Source: Synechococcus lacustris
GTDB lineage: Bacteria > Cyanobacteriota > Cyanobacteriia > PCC-6307 > Cyanobiaceae
Assembly (NCBI GenBank): GCA_903943975.1
Contig: CAJAQB010000003.1
Location: forward strand, 1 to 64,000
Direction: 5' to 3'
DNA: 64,000 nucleotides
The translations under genes were made by a program, and so were the position numbers. The notes under the pieces are model-generated. The model was not told the DNA's origin. It was given only the letters and a program-made list of their open reading frames with translations, and ran no database searches. Positions 58,141 to 63,612 of this stretch are shown here, piece after piece (positions within the stretch are counted from its first letter, which is position 1; each line of letters opens with the position of its first letter).

Positions 58141-58506
58141 ATGCTCACCGGACAAGACCTCCTTGCCAAGGTCAAGGAATTCAGCGACGGTTCCAAGTCT
58201 GACCTGGTGAAAGCTTGCGGCTACGTAAGCACCAAGAAAGACGGCAGTGATCGTCTGAACTTCACCGCTTTCTATGAAGCGCTGTTGGAAGCCAAGGGCG
58301 TTGAAATTGGTGGCACCAGCGTTGGCAAAGGCGGCCGCAAGCTGAGCTACACCGCCACCGTGCAGGGCAACGGCAACCTGCTGATCGGCAAGGCCTACAC
58401 CGCCATGCTGAATCTGCAACCCGGCGATGAGTTTGAAATCAAGCTCGGCCGCAAGCAAATCCGGCTTGTGCCCGTGGGCGGTAGCGACGAAGATGGCGAA
58501 GATTGA
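58141..58506 (+). CDS. cyAbrB transcription regulator
   Basis: The 121-residue protein matches the cyanobacterial AbrB-like family: MLTGQDLLAKVKEFSDGSKSDLVKACGYV, NFTAFYEALLEAKG and a C-terminal AbrB-type strand region FEIKLGRKQIRLV. These abundant DNA-binding proteins influence carbon and nitrogen genes. A candidate promoter with a -35 like TTGCCT lies near 58083. Confidence 0.9.
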   Translation: MLTGQDLLAKVKEFSDGSKSDLVKACGYVSTKKDGSDRLNFTAFYEALLEAKGVEIGGTSVGKGGRKLSYTATVQGNGNLLIGKAYTAMLNLQPGDEFEIKLGRKQIRLVPVGGSDEDGED

Positions 58507-58563: not shown

Positions 58564-58782
58564 GTGCTCCGTCCCCTGAGCGATCTGGAGACGGAGCTGG
58601 CTGTGGTGGCCTTGCAGGCCCACAGCGCAGTGGTGGCAGACCTTTCCCAGCTGGAGCCAGCCCAGGCCCAGCGGTTTGTTGATTTTGTTTCAGGGGCGTT
58701 GTTCGCCCTTGATGGGGAGGCCCGACGCATCAGCGATCGGGTCTTTCTTTTTGCCCCCAGTGCCATCCACATCAGTTCCTAA
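58564..58782 (+). CDS. Stand-alone mini SepF domain
   Basis: The 72-residue protein from GTG 58564 covers the core SepF fold only: LQAHSAVVADLSQLEPAQAQRFVDFVSGAL, FALDGEARRISDRVFLFAPSA. It lacks the N-terminal membrane helix and linker of the full SepF at 11957. It could join SepF polymers or act alone. Its last 93 bases overlap the convergent HD-GYP gene. Confidence 0.75.
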   Translation: MLRPLSDLETELAVVALQAHSAVVADLSQLEPAQAQRFVDFVSGALFALDGEARRISDRVFLFAPSAIHISS

Positions 58783-60333
58783 GCCAACTAGCTCCTTAGC
58801 TGCCTGGGGGGCAAAGGGGGCCAAATTGCCCAAGATGGCTGGATTCATCAGCTTGAGGCCCTTCTTACGAAACAGATGCAAGCAGGCATCCACGGCCAAA
58901 GGGTCATAGATAGTGCCCTTGCCGGCCTCAATGCAGTCGAGGGCTGCCTCTAGCCCAAGCGAGAAGCGATAGGGCCGATCGGTGGCCATCGCCTCCACCG
59001 TGTCTGCCACCGCCAGAATCCGCCCCCCCAGGCTGATCTGATCCCCCTTTAGCTGGTTGGGATAACCACTGCCATCAAGCCGTTCGTGGTGTTGAAGCAA
59101 CATCTCCGCCACCGGCCAGGGGAAACTGATTTTCTCAACCACTTCATAGCCATGCTGCACATGGGTGCGCAGCAGGTCATATTCCTGGGGCTTTAGGGCG
59201 GTGGGTTTGGTGAGGATTTCGGCGGGTATCGCAAACTTGCCGATGTCATGGATCAGGGCGGTGACCCTGATGCCTTCAATCTCCTTATCTTCTAGGCCCA
59301 GCTCCGTGGCGATGGCCACAGCCAAATACGCCACCCGGGCCTGGTGGCCGGCGGTGTAAGGATCTCGCGTCTCACTAAGACTCACCAGTGCCATAACCAT
59401 CTGCTGCATGCTCTGCAACAGTTGATCCTGGCGTTGGTGGGCAAGGCGTTCGGCCTGCTTGCGGTCGGAGATGTCTCGAATGTTGCACTGGATAACCTTC
59501 TGATCGCCCACCAGGTACACATTGCTTACAAACTCCACCTCCTTGAGGTTGCCGTCGCGGGCTTGCAGGGGTAGATCCTCGTAACGCACGTAACCCTGGG
59601 ATTGCAGTTCTGCGTAGATATCAATTGCCTTTTGCTTATCAACAAAGGCGCCGATCTCCCACAGCTGCTTGCCGATCAGCTGCTCGGGGGGCAAGCCCAG
59701 CACTTGGCCGATGTAAGGATTTGCCATGGTGATCTGGCCACTGCACCATTCCAGAATCAAGATGCCATCTTGGGCGTTCATGGCCAGCATCCGATAGCTA
59801 AGTTCTGAATTGACCAGGGCCTGCTCAGCGCGATGGATTTCCGTGAGATCAGCCACAATCAAACAACGCATCACCCCCTCAGGGGTATCCATGGTGTTTA
59901 CCGAAGCGAGCACAGCCAAAGCACTGCCATCGGCCCGATGTAACTCTAAAACTTTACTGTTGCTTTCCCCAGGTGGTTGCGAAAGCAATTGCGAGAGTTG
60001 CTGCTGCTGGTCTGCAGCCACCAGCAAGTTGCAGGCACGGCCAATCAAGGCTTCACTCTTGCAACCTAGCAACTGGGTTAAACGTGTGTTTACAAATAGA
60101 ATCAAGCCCGTGGCCGAAATCATTACCGCCCCTTCCCCCATTCCCTCCACAATCAAGCGATAGTTACGATCGGCCGTGCTACTGCTGTAGATCTGATTTT
60201 CAGCACCATCCCCCACCACCACGGAATCCAGTTCACCGCTAGTAATCGCCCGCAGCAATTCCTGGAGTTCTGCCACCTCGGTGCGCAATTGTTCCAGCTC
60301 CGGGGCCTGAGGTGGGAGAGAAGATTCAGTCAC
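58690..60333 (-). CDS. PAS-PAS-HD-GYP phosphodiesterase
   Basis: The 547-residue soluble protein has a short coiled coil (residues 10-30), a first PAS domain (about 58-170), a second PAS-PAC (about 180-295) and an HD-GYP domain. The active site reads TALIHDIGKFAIPAEIL, HVQHGYEVVEKI, and LLQHHERLDGSGYPNQLKG, which hydrolyses cyclic-di-GMP. It starts 19 bases after the kaiB-like stop, so it belongs to that operon. No membrane segment is seen. Confidence 0.88.
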   Translation of the reverse strand: MTESSLPPQAPELEQLRTEVAELQELLRAITSGELDSVVVGDGAENQIYSSSTADRNYRLIVEGMGEGAVMISATGLILFVNTRLTQLLGCKSEALIGRACNLLVAADQQQQLSQLLSQPPGESNSKVLELHRADGSALAVLASVNTMDTPEGVMRCLIVADLTEIHRAEQALVNSELSYRMLAMNAQDGILILEWCSGQITMANPYIGQVLGLPPEQLIGKQLWEIGAFVDKQKAIDIYAELQSQGYVRYEDLPLQARDGNLKEVEFVSNVYLVGDQKVIQCNIRDISDRKQAERLAHQRQDQLLQSMQQMVMALVSLSETRDPYTAGHQARVAYLAVAIATELGLEDKEIEGIRVTALIHDIGKFAIPAEILTKPTALKPQEYDLLRTHVQHGYEVVEKISFPWPVAEMLLQHHERLDGSGYPNQLKGDQISLGGRILAVADTVEAMATDRPYRFSLGLEAALDCIEAGKGTIYDPLAVDACLHLFRKKGLKLMNPAILGNLAPFAPQAAKELVGLGTDVDGTGGKKKDPIADASGLPIKGEQRP

Positions 60334-60352
60334 AAATTGTCTACCTTGCTGG

Positions 60353-60700
60353 CTATTTGTGGCGAGGGGGGGGGGGGGGCAGAAGATCCAACGCCACCTT
60401 CACCCGATGTTCACTGGCCAGATCGCCAATAATCTGACGCAACGGTGGCGGCAGGTGCTTAACAAGGGTTGGTATTGCCAGAATACGATCCTTTTGCAGG
60501 GCCTCGGGGTGGAGGCGGATATCCACCACCTTGAGATCCACTCGACCCTTCAATTCGCGATCGCAAATGCCCTGGACTGTGGCCAAGGCGGCGCTGGAAC
60601 GGTGGGAGGCACCGCTGATATAAAGCGTCAACAGATAACGCTGCTTAGAATGCTCGTCGCCATTCTCATTGCAATTGGTTGGCTCAGTATTAATGGTCAT
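60353..60700 (-). CDS. kaiB: KaiB-like protein
   Basis: The 115-residue protein aligns with KaiB: YLLTLYISGASHRSSAALATV, VDLKVVDIRLHPEAL, and ILAIPTLVKHLPPPLRQIIGDL. The fold-switching region is kept. The C-terminal acidic tail of clock KaiB is missing; a run of 14 G in the DNA (60366-60379) instead codes for Pro residues and a short basic end. Its start overlaps the kaiC-like stop by four bases. Confidence 0.85.
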   Translation of the reverse strand: MTINTEPTNCNENGDEHSKQRYLLTLYISGASHRSSAALATVQGICDRELKGRVDLKVVDIRLHPEALQKDRILAIPTLVKHLPPPLRQIIGDLASEHRVKVALDLLPPPPPRHK

Positions 60701-62466
60701 TGGAATTCACCTCGATGCTGGGAGCGAAGCAAAGTTTGTCTCTCCAGAACAAGCTTGGCCTCCTCTAACTCAGAGGTGATCAATTCAAGCTCGGTCGAGT
60801 CGTCCTCGAGTTGCTGTCTAAGAAAATCGATTTTGTTCTCAATCTCCCTGCGATTCCTTTGCGCAACACGCTGCTTGCTCTTGATTTCATTCATATCATG
60901 AAGCTTAAGACGCTCCTGCCTGTCTTGATAGGCGCTGCGGGCGGAGCCGGTGAGCACACCGTCTGTGCCAATCACCACATCCACTAATTCTGGCCCATTA
61001 CTGGTGAGCTTAAACTCGCGCACTTGATTTGAATGATTGATCCCCCTAGCCTTGACAATGGTAAGCAAACGGTTGCGTTCACCATCGCCTTCAGTGTTCC
61101 TAACTAGTATCCAAGTATCAATGATTGACGATATACCTACGACACTTTCCTTAAAGTTGTTACCATGGGAAAGAGCACTCAAAACCACAGTGATTCCGTG
61201 GCTTCTGAGCAGATCAATCACCCGAACAGCAATTGAGTTAACTTCCGTTTCACTGCCAACATGGATCAGGCTACTAATACTATCAATGGCAACTAAAGTG
61301 GGCTTGAAATTTAAAACCATCTGCTCAAGGGTGCCAATTCTCTCTTCCACTCCAGTAGCAGTAGTACGTTCACACCAAATATTCAGCAAGCCAAGATCAA
61401 TCCAGCACTTCAGATCAATCGCCACCGAGGCCATGTCACGAACCAGCTGATCGGGGCATTCCTCGGTGGAAACAAGCAACACCCTTTCGCCGCGCCGGGC
61501 AACCTCACATACAATGCTGCAAACCACAGTGGTTTTTCCTGTGCCGGTGTAACCAGAGATCAACAGGCTGGAATGTCGATAGATTCCACCATCAAGCATC
61601 TCATCAAGCTGGGGTATGCCAGTTGATATCCTTTCGCTGCCTGCAACATAGTTGAGCATCACCGCCGTGATCGGCCTCACACTAAAACCCCTGCTGGAGA
61701 TAATGAAGGGGAACTCGTTGGTGCTGTGGGCGGAACCTCGATATTTCACCAGCCGCAGCCGCCTGGTGCAGATCTCATTCTCTAGCCGTTGATCCAGCAA
61801 GATAACGCAATCAGATACATATTCCTCCACGCCATAACGGGAAAGTTCCCCCTGGAGCCCCCGTTCACCGATCACCACAGAAGTTAGCCCTCGATCGTTA
61901 AGCCAATCAAATAGGCGCAGTAGTTCAGCCCGAACAATTGGCGAATTGCCATAGCTAGATAGCAGTGATTCGATCGAATCCAGCACCACCCGCTTGGCGC
62001 CCACAGCATTGATTGCCTGGTCTAGGCGCAGGAATAAACCTTCAAGCTCAAAGTCGCCAACCGTAACCACCTCAGCGGGGTAGATGCGGCAGGATTCGAT
62101 CACAAGCTGCTTATTGTTGATCAGTTCCGGTAGGTTGAAACCGAGGCCGCACACGTCTTGACTGATGGTGAGACTTGATTCCTCAAAACTCATCAGCACC
62201 CCTGGTTCTGAAAACCTAAGGGCTCCCTGCACCAGGAACTCAATGCCAAAGATTGTTTTGCCACAGCCTGAGCCACCACTCACCAGGGTGCAGCGGCCCC
62301 GCGGCAAGCCACCGCCACTAATATCATCAAAGCCATCGATACCGGTGGGAGCCTTCTCCAGAAGGTACTCAGCCATATCAAACGGCCCAGTTGATTCGCC
62401 CAGGGGGGATTGCATTTGCCAAGACCCAGGCTTGAATGCACTAAATCTAAGCAGCTGTAGCGCCAC
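60697..62466 (-). CDS. kaiC: KaiC2-like double-domain ATPase
   Basis: The 589-residue protein has two RecA-like KaiC domains. CI: Walker A GGSGCGKT (64-71) and catalytic FEES (EE at 95-96). CII: GYTGTGKT (305-312) and TEEC (EE at 335-336). By eye, the KaiC phosphosites T426, S431 and T432 correspond to Ser441, Ser446 and Ser447 here, in ESVVGISSIIDTW. A long C-terminal coiled coil (about 514-580) replaces the A-loop region, as in KaiC2 proteins. Alternative starts are ATG 62415 and 62376. First gene of the kaiC-kaiB-HD-GYP operon. Confidence 0.88.
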   Translation of the reverse strand: MALQLLRFSAFKPGSWQMQSPLGESTGPFDMAEYLLEKAPTGIDGFDDISGGGLPRGRCTLVSGGSGCGKTIFGIEFLVQGALRFSEPGVLMSFEESSLTISQDVCGLGFNLPELINNKQLVIESCRIYPAEVVTVGDFELEGLFLRLDQAINAVGAKRVVLDSIESLLSSYGNSPIVRAELLRLFDWLNDRGLTSVVIGERGLQGELSRYGVEEYVSDCVILLDQRLENEICTRRLRLVKYRGSAHSTNEFPFIISSRGFSVRPITAVMLNYVAGSERISTGIPQLDEMLDGGIYRHSSLLISGYTGTGKTTVVCSIVCEVARRGERVLLVSTEECPDQLVRDMASVAIDLKCWIDLGLLNIWCERTTATGVEERIGTLEQMVLNFKPTLVAIDSISSLIHVGSETEVNSIAVRVIDLLRSHGITVVLSALSHGNNFKESVVGISSIIDTWILVRNTEGDGERNRLLTIVKARGINHSNQVREFKLTSNGPELVDVVIGTDGVLTGSARSAYQDRQERLKLHDMNEIKSKQRVAQRNRREIENKIDFLRQQLEDDSTELELITSELEEAKLVLERQTLLRSQHRGEFQ

Positions 62467-62611: not shown

Positions 62612-63486
62612 TCAGGCATGTATACGCTGCTCTGGGGCTGAAGGCGGTGGCGGCGGTGGAGGAATTTGGATTACCTGGTTGCGGCCCTCCCGCTTGGCTT
62701 CAAACATCGCCATATCAGCGCGGGCGATAATCGCATCTATGGGCTCATCTCTTTGGGCCAGGGTCGCGCCAATGCTGATGGTGATATTGATCTGGCCGGC
62801 ATCGCTGGGGAACGGGGCTTCGATAGCCAGGCGGATTTTTTCAGCGATGGCTACGGCATTGTCTAGATCCTGTACCCCATAGAGTAATACCAGCATTTCA
62901 TCGCCCCCCACCCTGGCGGAGTTATTGGTTTACAGTCTGAAATTGCCTTTAATTTAACTGCATAGACCGGCAGATCATCGCCATGGATGAATTCACTCGG
63001 ATTTCGACCAATACAGTCCTCTGGCAGCCAGCCAAGCATTGGCATGACTGAGGGGGAGATCCAGATGATCATGTCCTCCCGCAGACGAACCACCACATCA
63101 GAGGTATTTTGCGCCAATAATCGATAGTGCATTTCAGAGAGATGGATTTGCCTTTCCTTTTCCTGATTCAGTCCGGCTAGTTTTATCGAAATCAACATCA
63201 CAGTTATTAGTACGATAAGACGCATCCAATAATCCAAGGAACCGACCGCCAACCACTGCGCCCCTGAGATTGTGGCTAATACAAGGGTCATTGTCCCAAT
63301 TACAAGTTCCTGCTTGGCAGTAGCAAAGCTCACCGCCAGCACCAACGGTATCCAATAGAAGGGCAATAAAATAATTTCCGAAGGCAGGATCCAATCAATT
63401 ATAAAAATAACCAATAGAACTGCTATCACCAGCCTGAAGCGATTATCAGACATATCCGATAAATAGTGCTTGAGCCAAGAGATCAT
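62612..63486 (-). pseudogene. Broken membrane PAS-GGDEF diguanylate cyclase
   Basis: From ATG 63486 the frame encodes about four membrane helices (MSDNRFRLVIAVLLVIFIID onward) and a PAS domain (RLLAQNTSDVVVRLREDMII, GWLPEDCIGRNPSEFIHGDD). At about 62935 it meets, out of frame, the GGDEF C-terminal half: GGDEMLVLLYGVQDLDNAVA and ISIGATLAQRDEPIDAIIARADMAMFEAKREGRN in pieces. About 100 residues before the GGDEF motif are gone. A deletion with frameshift seems likely. The gene is upstream of kaiC, on the same strand. Confidence 0.8.
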
Positions 63487-63505
63487 GCTGGGGTGCTTTT
63501 TTTTT

Positions 63506-63523
63506 GGGGGGGGGGGGGGGGGG
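63506..63523. repeat. Run of 18 G preceded by nine T
   Basis: T9-G18 lies 20 bases upstream of the ATG of the broken cyclase. Other long runs in the window are G14 at 60366-60379 and C14 at 52087-52100. Such runs are prone to slippage and to sequencing errors. Confidence 0.8.
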
Positions 63524-63612
63524 TAAACAGTCCACAACCCAGCTCTAATTTTTAAATGATAAGCGGCTTTAGTGCCGCTTGGGCAGCTCAAAATGATGCA
63601 AATTTGCTGCTC

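Follow-up and report, generated by a model that had tools for sequence, protein, structure and literature searches.

A KaiC2-KaiB operon with a predicted cyclic-di-GMP phosphodiesterase gene in Synechococcus lacustris, and a KaiBC-linked N-terminal module

The cellular role of KaiBC systems that lack KaiA is, to our knowledge, a long-standing question, and in most species their output is undefined. In Legionella pneumophila, kaiBC is reportedly co-transcribed with a third gene, lpp1114 (work of Loza-Correa et al., 2014), which presumably encodes a GGDEF/EAL protein; the Legionella KaiB is said not to bind KaiC. Operons of the type kaiC-kaiB-PAS/histidine kinase (HK) have been described for R. 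palustris and R. sphaeroides (PMC4794148). In the sections of De Luca et al. 2011 that treat such clusters (PMC3164672), almost all kaiC-kaiB clusters outside cyanobacteria have an HK or GGDEF/EAL gene directly downstream; these sections name cyanobacteria as the exception, do not mention HD-GYP, and describe no shared N-terminal module for the proteins concerned. In Rhodobacter (Cereibacter) sphaeroides, KaiBC acts as an hourglass: the change in adenosine triphosphate/adenosine diphosphate (ATP/ADP) between day and night drives it, and its KaiC is a coiled-coil dodecamer (PMC10076222). This report examines a related operon in a cyanobacterium. It lies on a stretch of 64,000 nucleotides from Synechococcus lacustris (contig CAJAQB010000003.1, positions 1 to 64,000; the whole stretch is called the window) in a genome of 2.47 Mb (G000). 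Here kaiC2 and kaiB are followed by a gene for a PAS-PAS-HD-GYP protein, in contrast to the GGDEF/EAL protein of Legionella and the HWE histidine kinase of R. sphaeroides.

The three genes are arranged head to tail on the minus strand, with an overlap of 4 base pairs (bp) followed by a gap of 19 bp:
60697..62466, minus strand: kaiC2, a two-domain KaiC ATPase/autokinase with a C-terminal coiled coil (PF06745 twice, E 1e-97; tree)
60353..60700, minus strand: kaiB2 (PF07689, E 8e-23; solved relatives 2qke and 8fwj)
58690..60333, minus strand: PAS-PAS-HD-GYP protein, a predicted phosphodiesterase of cyclic di-GMP (c-di-GMP) (Pfam, HD-GYP structures, catalytic residues)
58141..58506, plus strand: AbrB-like gene (PF14250), convergent, the downstream limit of the operon

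The preliminary description of this DNA gave coordinates, strand and spacing exactly, and its account of the products (a two-domain KaiC with coiled coil, KaiB, PAS-PAS-HD-GYP) is borne out by family searches and intact catalytic motifs. The kaiC2 reading frame gives 589 residues from a GTG codon; homologues start near residue 18-35, and the true start may be Met18 or Met31. KaiB2 has 115 residues and shares its 4 bp with kaiC2, while the HD-GYP protein, also from a GTG start, has 547. No promoter-like sites lie between the three genes, the region as a whole having three against a chance expectation of 2.9, and a search for an own promoter of the HD-GYP gene yielded nothing beyond chance level. 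Such a separate promoter, which would have spoken against a functional link, is unlikely because of the 19-bp gap here and overlaps of 4 bp in two relatives. From the sequence we infer that the three genes are co-transcribed.

The closest described counterpart is the R. sphaeroides operon (PMC10076222; L104), which has the same gene order, the same pair of serine phosphosites (SS) and the same coiled-coil tail on KaiC. Even the third protein begins alike, with the same helix and GDVDALVV module, which there leads into a degenerate PAS domain. The two systems differ in their output enzyme and also in company: R. sphaeroides has KaiBC only, whereas G000 holds a canonical kaiA-kaiB-kaiC cluster as well (contig C8). 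No kaiA lies beside the kaiBC genes of the window; the sole KaiA of the genome is encoded at C8:173854, by the other kaiBC.

Conservation of this arrangement was surveyed in 300 genomes of the family to which G000 belongs. A related-locus search with the single KaiC2 protein returned only five remote loci, and linkage was therefore measured by genome searches. In this family kaiC2 is rare (10 of 300 genomes at E 1e-105). The order kaiC2-kaiB-HD-GYP recurs in G059, G131 and G162, with operon proteins 53-62% identical to those of the window and with flanking genes that are otherwise unshared, save for a PAS-GGDEF gene adjoining three of the loci; conserved order in relatives, the check proposed at the outset, was thus found. 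Searched with the HD-GYP protein, the same 300 genomes hold five full-length orthologues (G000, G059, G096, G131, G162). Four follow kaiC2-kaiB; the fifth, in G096, begins some 16 bp downstream of a kaiC2 that is truncated to 204 residues. The linkage does not arise by accident. In G059, KaiB and HD-GYP even form one reading frame (L030:9691-11544), with a run of seven G at the junction. At the G096 locus (L072:7826-9958), the HD-GYP gene is complete, but of kaiC2 only the N-terminal third is left and kaiB is missing altogether; this may be a natural deletion or a misassembly.

At other kai loci, the place of HD-GYP is taken by GGDEF or GGDEF-EAL proteins. A PAS-GGDEF protein stands there at two more kaiC2-kaiB loci of the family (G279 C17 and G162 C9), and G695 (L109) has kaiC, kaiB and the module followed by GGDEF-EAL, a layout like that of the Legionella kai operon. 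The G131 operon contains both HD-GYP and GGDEF enzymes, in genes overlapping by 4 bp. In the KaiC tree, the KaiC2s of the family form one group (support 98/99); within it, those linked to HD-GYP fall into one subgroup (99/95) along with two unlinked ones, and those linked to GGDEF form a separate group. The tree fits a single origin of the linkage with later losses.

The strongest evidence for the link is a short N-terminal part of the HD-GYP protein that was absent from the preliminary description. That earlier reading is upheld as to gene order and KaiC class; besides this module, it overlooked a broken GGDEF gene and a poly-C tract (see below).
60088..60300, minus strand: KaiBC-specific N-terminal module, about residues 12-82 (match to profile A2, E 2e-28; structure model)

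In the model, the module comprises a helix (11-31), a beta hairpin (35-50) with the motif AI.SGE.D..VV, a second helix (56-64) and the start of the first PAS domain. Module proteins are defined here by this 71-residue N-terminus and a gene directly 3' of kaiB, and the window protein has both, at a distance of 19 bp. Paralogues of the HD-GYP protein, including one in the same genome (C13:279918), are 55-69% identical over the second PAS and HD-GYP domains; they start with REC or other sensor parts in place of the module, and none lies at a kai locus. In R. sphaeroides, rhizobia, Thiohalophilus and other cyanobacteria, proteins encoded downstream of kaiB begin in the same way. What follows the module differs: mostly HWE or HATPase kinases, some GGDEF-EAL proteins, and also GGDEF and HD-GYP. 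The GGDEF proteins with the module are encoded after kaiB in G279 and G162 and after HD-GYP in G131.

A2, a 71-position profile of the module, was built from kai-linked proteins and first searched in 80 chosen genomes. Full matches (E at most 6e-12) numbered 24 and came from 21 genomes, each of which has kaiC2 or a remnant of it. All 24 lie at kaiB/kaiC loci, and the 49 genomes without kaiC2 gave none (Fisher p about 1e-11); two partial matches, to the PAS end only, occur in kaiC2-bearing genomes. Directly after kaiB are 22 of the 24; of the other two, one encodes the second output enzyme in the G131 operon and one comes after the G096 kaiC2 remnant. Two candidate exceptions, in G326 and G534 C60, were rejected, as both follow kaiB genes that lie away from kaiC. 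At L145:5281-9027 and L146:6548-10102, a module protein gene comes after a kaiB that has no kaiC next to it, and kaiC2 lies elsewhere in those genomes; such pairs suggest that the module goes with KaiB.

Since many of the positive genomes among the 80 had contributed rows to A2, the profile was tested independently on 299 Pseudomonadota genomes chosen regardless of kai genes (cut-off E 1e-8). There were nine matches, one of them from the source of an A2 row; the remaining eight are each encoded no more than about 0.1 kb downstream of kaiB, for which the chance odds are negligible. The expectation that the start AIRSGEVDALVV is common in PAS kinases generally proved wrong, all eight new matches being at kaiBC. 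As every independent match lies directly after kaiB, the module belongs to the KaiBC pathway. No match to KaiB itself was found within the module.

The Kai proteins of the operon are of a recognisable type. The features of KaiC2 are as follows:
62254..62277, minus strand: CI Walker A motif GGSGCGKT, residues 64-71 (alignment with R. sphaeroides KaiC)
61531..61554, minus strand: CII Walker A motif GYTGTGKT, residues 305-312 (alignment with R. sphaeroides KaiC)
61126..61131, minus strand: phosphosite pair Ser446-Ser447 (VGISSIIDTW), equivalent to S413/S414 of R. sphaeroides KaiC (alignment)
60712..60909, minus strand: C-terminal coiled-coil tail, about residues 520-585 (aligns with the R. sphaeroides dodecamer coil)

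The closest solved relative is R. sphaeroides KaiC (8dba, E 1e-154), with a match from residue 37 into the coiled coil; the cyanobacterial clock KaiC is a much weaker match (E about 1e-91). Each of the two KaiC domains keeps its Walker A motif and its EE catalytic pair. The phosphosite consists of two serines rather than Ser-Thr, which is a mark of KaiC2 (PMC5520375). Over its whole length the tail can be aligned with the coiled coil of R. sphaeroides KaiC, and it replaces the KaiA-binding tail. In the tree, which was built without Synechocystis KaiC2, the protein groups with the KaiC2s of its family, far from the KaiC1 of its own genome. By these features the window KaiC is classed with the Rhodobacter/KaiC2 type, in keeping with the earlier call of a KaiC2/KaiB2 pair, and because of the SS phosphosites and the coiled-coil tail, the input that KaiC2-KaiB provides is likely to be an ATP/ADP-driven hourglass, by homology. 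In G131 (L032), the kaiC2 phosphosite is TA instead of SS, so that one acceptor is lost despite the HD-GYP and GGDEF outputs in the operon. Many kaiC2 loci have two kaiB genes in tandem before the module protein (L022, L084-L089, L093-L097, L105).

Downstream of the module, the third protein has the following domains:
59839..60168, minus strand: PAS1, about residues 56-165 (Pfam/TIGR00229, structure model)
59464..59808, minus strand: PAS2, about residues 176-290 (structure model, alignment A3)
58864..59409, minus strand: HD-GYP catalytic domain, about residues 309-490 (HD_5 at 320-478, alignment A3)

Family searches match two PAS domains and HD_5 (PF13487, E 2e-37). All HD-GYP metal ligands (H330, H362, D363, H391, H415, H416, D444) and the GYP motif (423-425) are kept; H330, H362-D363-K366, H391, H415-H416-E417, G423-Y424-P425 and D444 are invariant in the 13 relatives of alignment A3. 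The model matches the PAS/HD-GYP structure 9rbz (target-normalised TM 0.80-0.82) and a c-di-GMP-bound HD-GYP structure (4mcw). The closest solved fold is that of DvhD (9rc0, 9rbz), in which PAS likewise precedes HD-GYP; the match does not extend over the N-terminal module, and we know of no Kai link for DvhD. The protein is predicted to hydrolyse c-di-GMP, but its best sequence match, 5z7c, is a 3'3'-cyclic GMP-AMP (3'3'-cGAMP) phosphodiesterase, so the actual substrate may be another. c-di-GMP itself should be made in this organism, as seven full GGDEF domains and one PilZ protein are encoded elsewhere in the genome.

The reading that we consider probable is that the operon encodes a KaiA-independent KaiC2-KaiB2 timer or energy sensor with its own HD-GYP output enzyme, and that Kai state sets c-di-GMP hydrolysis. 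KaiC2, as a coiled-coil-linked double hexamer, would autophosphorylate at Ser446/Ser447 at high ATP without KaiA, as in R. sphaeroides; a falling ATP/ADP ratio would lead to dephosphorylation, aided by KaiB. The HD-GYP protein would sense the Kai state by docking of its helix-hairpin-PAS module to KaiB or the KaiB-KaiC complex. The module is the natural contact because it is the only part common to outputs of differing chemistry. From there the signal would run through PAS1-PAS2 to the HD-GYP domain and raise or lower the rate of c-di-GMP hydrolysis, and cellular c-di-GMP would track energy state or time of day. It is the setting of HD-GYP activity by Kai state, the docking and the direction of control that we infer. 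In S. elongatus the clock period becomes longer when a c-di-GMP phosphodiesterase is expressed (PMC13001216), so c-di-GMP and clock pathways do meet in cyanobacteria.

Several points weigh against this scheme. A model of the natural KaiB-module fusion of G059 gave no confident docking (pTM 0.49; no contacts reported). In its KaiB part the elements come in thioredoxin-like order; since AF2 has a default preference for one KaiB state, the fold state of KaiB in the model is not used as evidence. The HD-GYP output is seen in the one family only, and the system is patchy there. Several kaiC2-kaiB loci have no module protein (G162 C47, G069, G023, G375, G392, G480 and one of those in G373), so the HD-GYP/module output is not obligatory. 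These loci, with the lack of docking in the model, would suit mere shared regulation, in which stress or diel timing calls for joint expression of the genes and the proteins make no contact. We regard this as improbable: a 70-residue module found solely beside kaiB/kaiC, in two phyla and on four kinds of output, is hard to explain in this way, as is a single reading frame for KaiB and HD-GYP in G059.

Linkage in any case speaks for a shared pathway rather than a direction, and KaiBC could instead take its input from the PAS protein. PAS1-PAS2 would then sense redox, light or c-di-GMP, the module would relay the signal to KaiB/KaiC to set or reset the timer, and HD-GYP would be a c-di-GMP sensor or feedback enzyme. 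According to one proposal, the histidine kinase of the R. sphaeroides kaiBC operon conveys redox signals to KaiBC (PMC5520375), altered c-di-GMP shifts the S. elongatus clock (PMC13001216), and a shared module with varying enzymes fits a common Kai-facing side in either direction. Yet what varies is an effector enzyme (HK, GGDEF-EAL, GGDEF or HD-GYP), as outputs would be, and the catalytic residues of HD-GYP are kept; we think an input role rather unlikely, if less so than shared regulation. Least probable of all is that the locus is a decaying relic. The signs of decay would be the GGDEF neighbour, which is frameshifted and lacks about 129 residues, the C14 tract of kaiB, and G096, where kaiB and the larger part of kaiC2 are gone, although that deletion may be a misassembly. 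Against this, kaiC2, kaiB and the HD-GYP gene have all kept their full length and their motifs, and at 53-62% identity to relatives this requires purifying selection.

That KaiBC is linked to a signalling enzyme is a known principle. Within the open-licence full-text literature, no description of a kaiC-kaiB-HD-GYP operon was found; by the same measure, the HD-GYP output, its cyanobacterial occurrence beside a canonical clock, and one KaiBC-specific module marking these proteins appear to be new. As the module sits only beside KaiB/KaiC genes and is joined to different output enzymes, it may be a general plug that KaiBC timers use to drive cellular signalling. A module restricted to kaiB/kaiC and carried by assayable enzymes offers a direct handle on KaiBC output. 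In cyanobacteria, c-di-GMP is a signal for biofilm formation and motility, and two Kai systems in one genome could split time-keeping and surface behaviour between them.

Upstream of kaiC2 and at the end of kaiB are three further features:
62612..63591, minus strand: broken PAS-GGDEF gene (about 129 residues missing and a frameshift)
60366..60379, minus strand: C14 homopolymer (coding strand) in the last kaiB codons
63497..63523, minus strand: C18-A9 homopolymer just 5' of the broken GGDEF gene

The PAS-GGDEF gene is divergent and intact in G059, and intact and next in the operon in G131. In the window, its PAS part corresponds to residues 195-268 of the intact G059 orthologue and its GGDEF part to 398-480; it may be a pseudogene or a misassembly, and since the gene is broken, the adjacent GGDEF reading frames were rejected as an active cyclase. 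A pattern search found only nine C/G runs of at least 12 in the whole G000 genome, two of them within 3.2 kb here. Upstream, the HD-GYP frame continues without a stop across the kaiB tract, so that C13 (one base lost) or C16 would give an in-frame KaiB-HD-GYP fusion. In G162 C47 (L028:4731-4744), kaiB has G14 at the same place and no HD-GYP follows; in G279 C67 (start of L029), the contig ends in a G run at this place in kaiB. As a lead after the fact, the kaiB tract could reflect sequencing error, act as a switch by slippage, or be a tail in which frequent mutation is tolerated. The single frame of G059 is formally like SasA, which combines a KaiC-reading N-terminus with an enzymatic output; SasA carries its own KaiB-like domain, whereas most genomes with the present system encode KaiB separately.

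A bolder proposal, which we hold only tentatively and below even confidence, is that KaiC2-type KaiBC timers act via one dedicated, unnamed docking module joined to at least four output enzymes. In the family of G000 they would gate c-di-GMP directly, by a hydrolase here, a cyclase in sister lineages and both in G131; in G000 itself, slippage in C14 could switch between separate KaiB and a KaiB-HD-GYP fusion.

Some other kaiC2 loci of cyanobacteria point the same way, to c-di-GMP, by a longer route. In G313, G439 and G534, a gene for a REC-PAS-GGDEF-EAL response regulator adjoins kaiC2, upstream or divergent (L094, L096, L097), and kaiB is followed by a module hybrid kinase; in G426, a REC-GGDEF gene comes directly after a large module protein. 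Farther from the operon, at about 52.8-54.0 kb of the window, are two phycocyanin-like genes. Their counterparts in L028 (G162 C47) are two reading frames of 172-173 residues, about 90% identical to those of G000, and in both genomes they lie within several kb of kaiC2.

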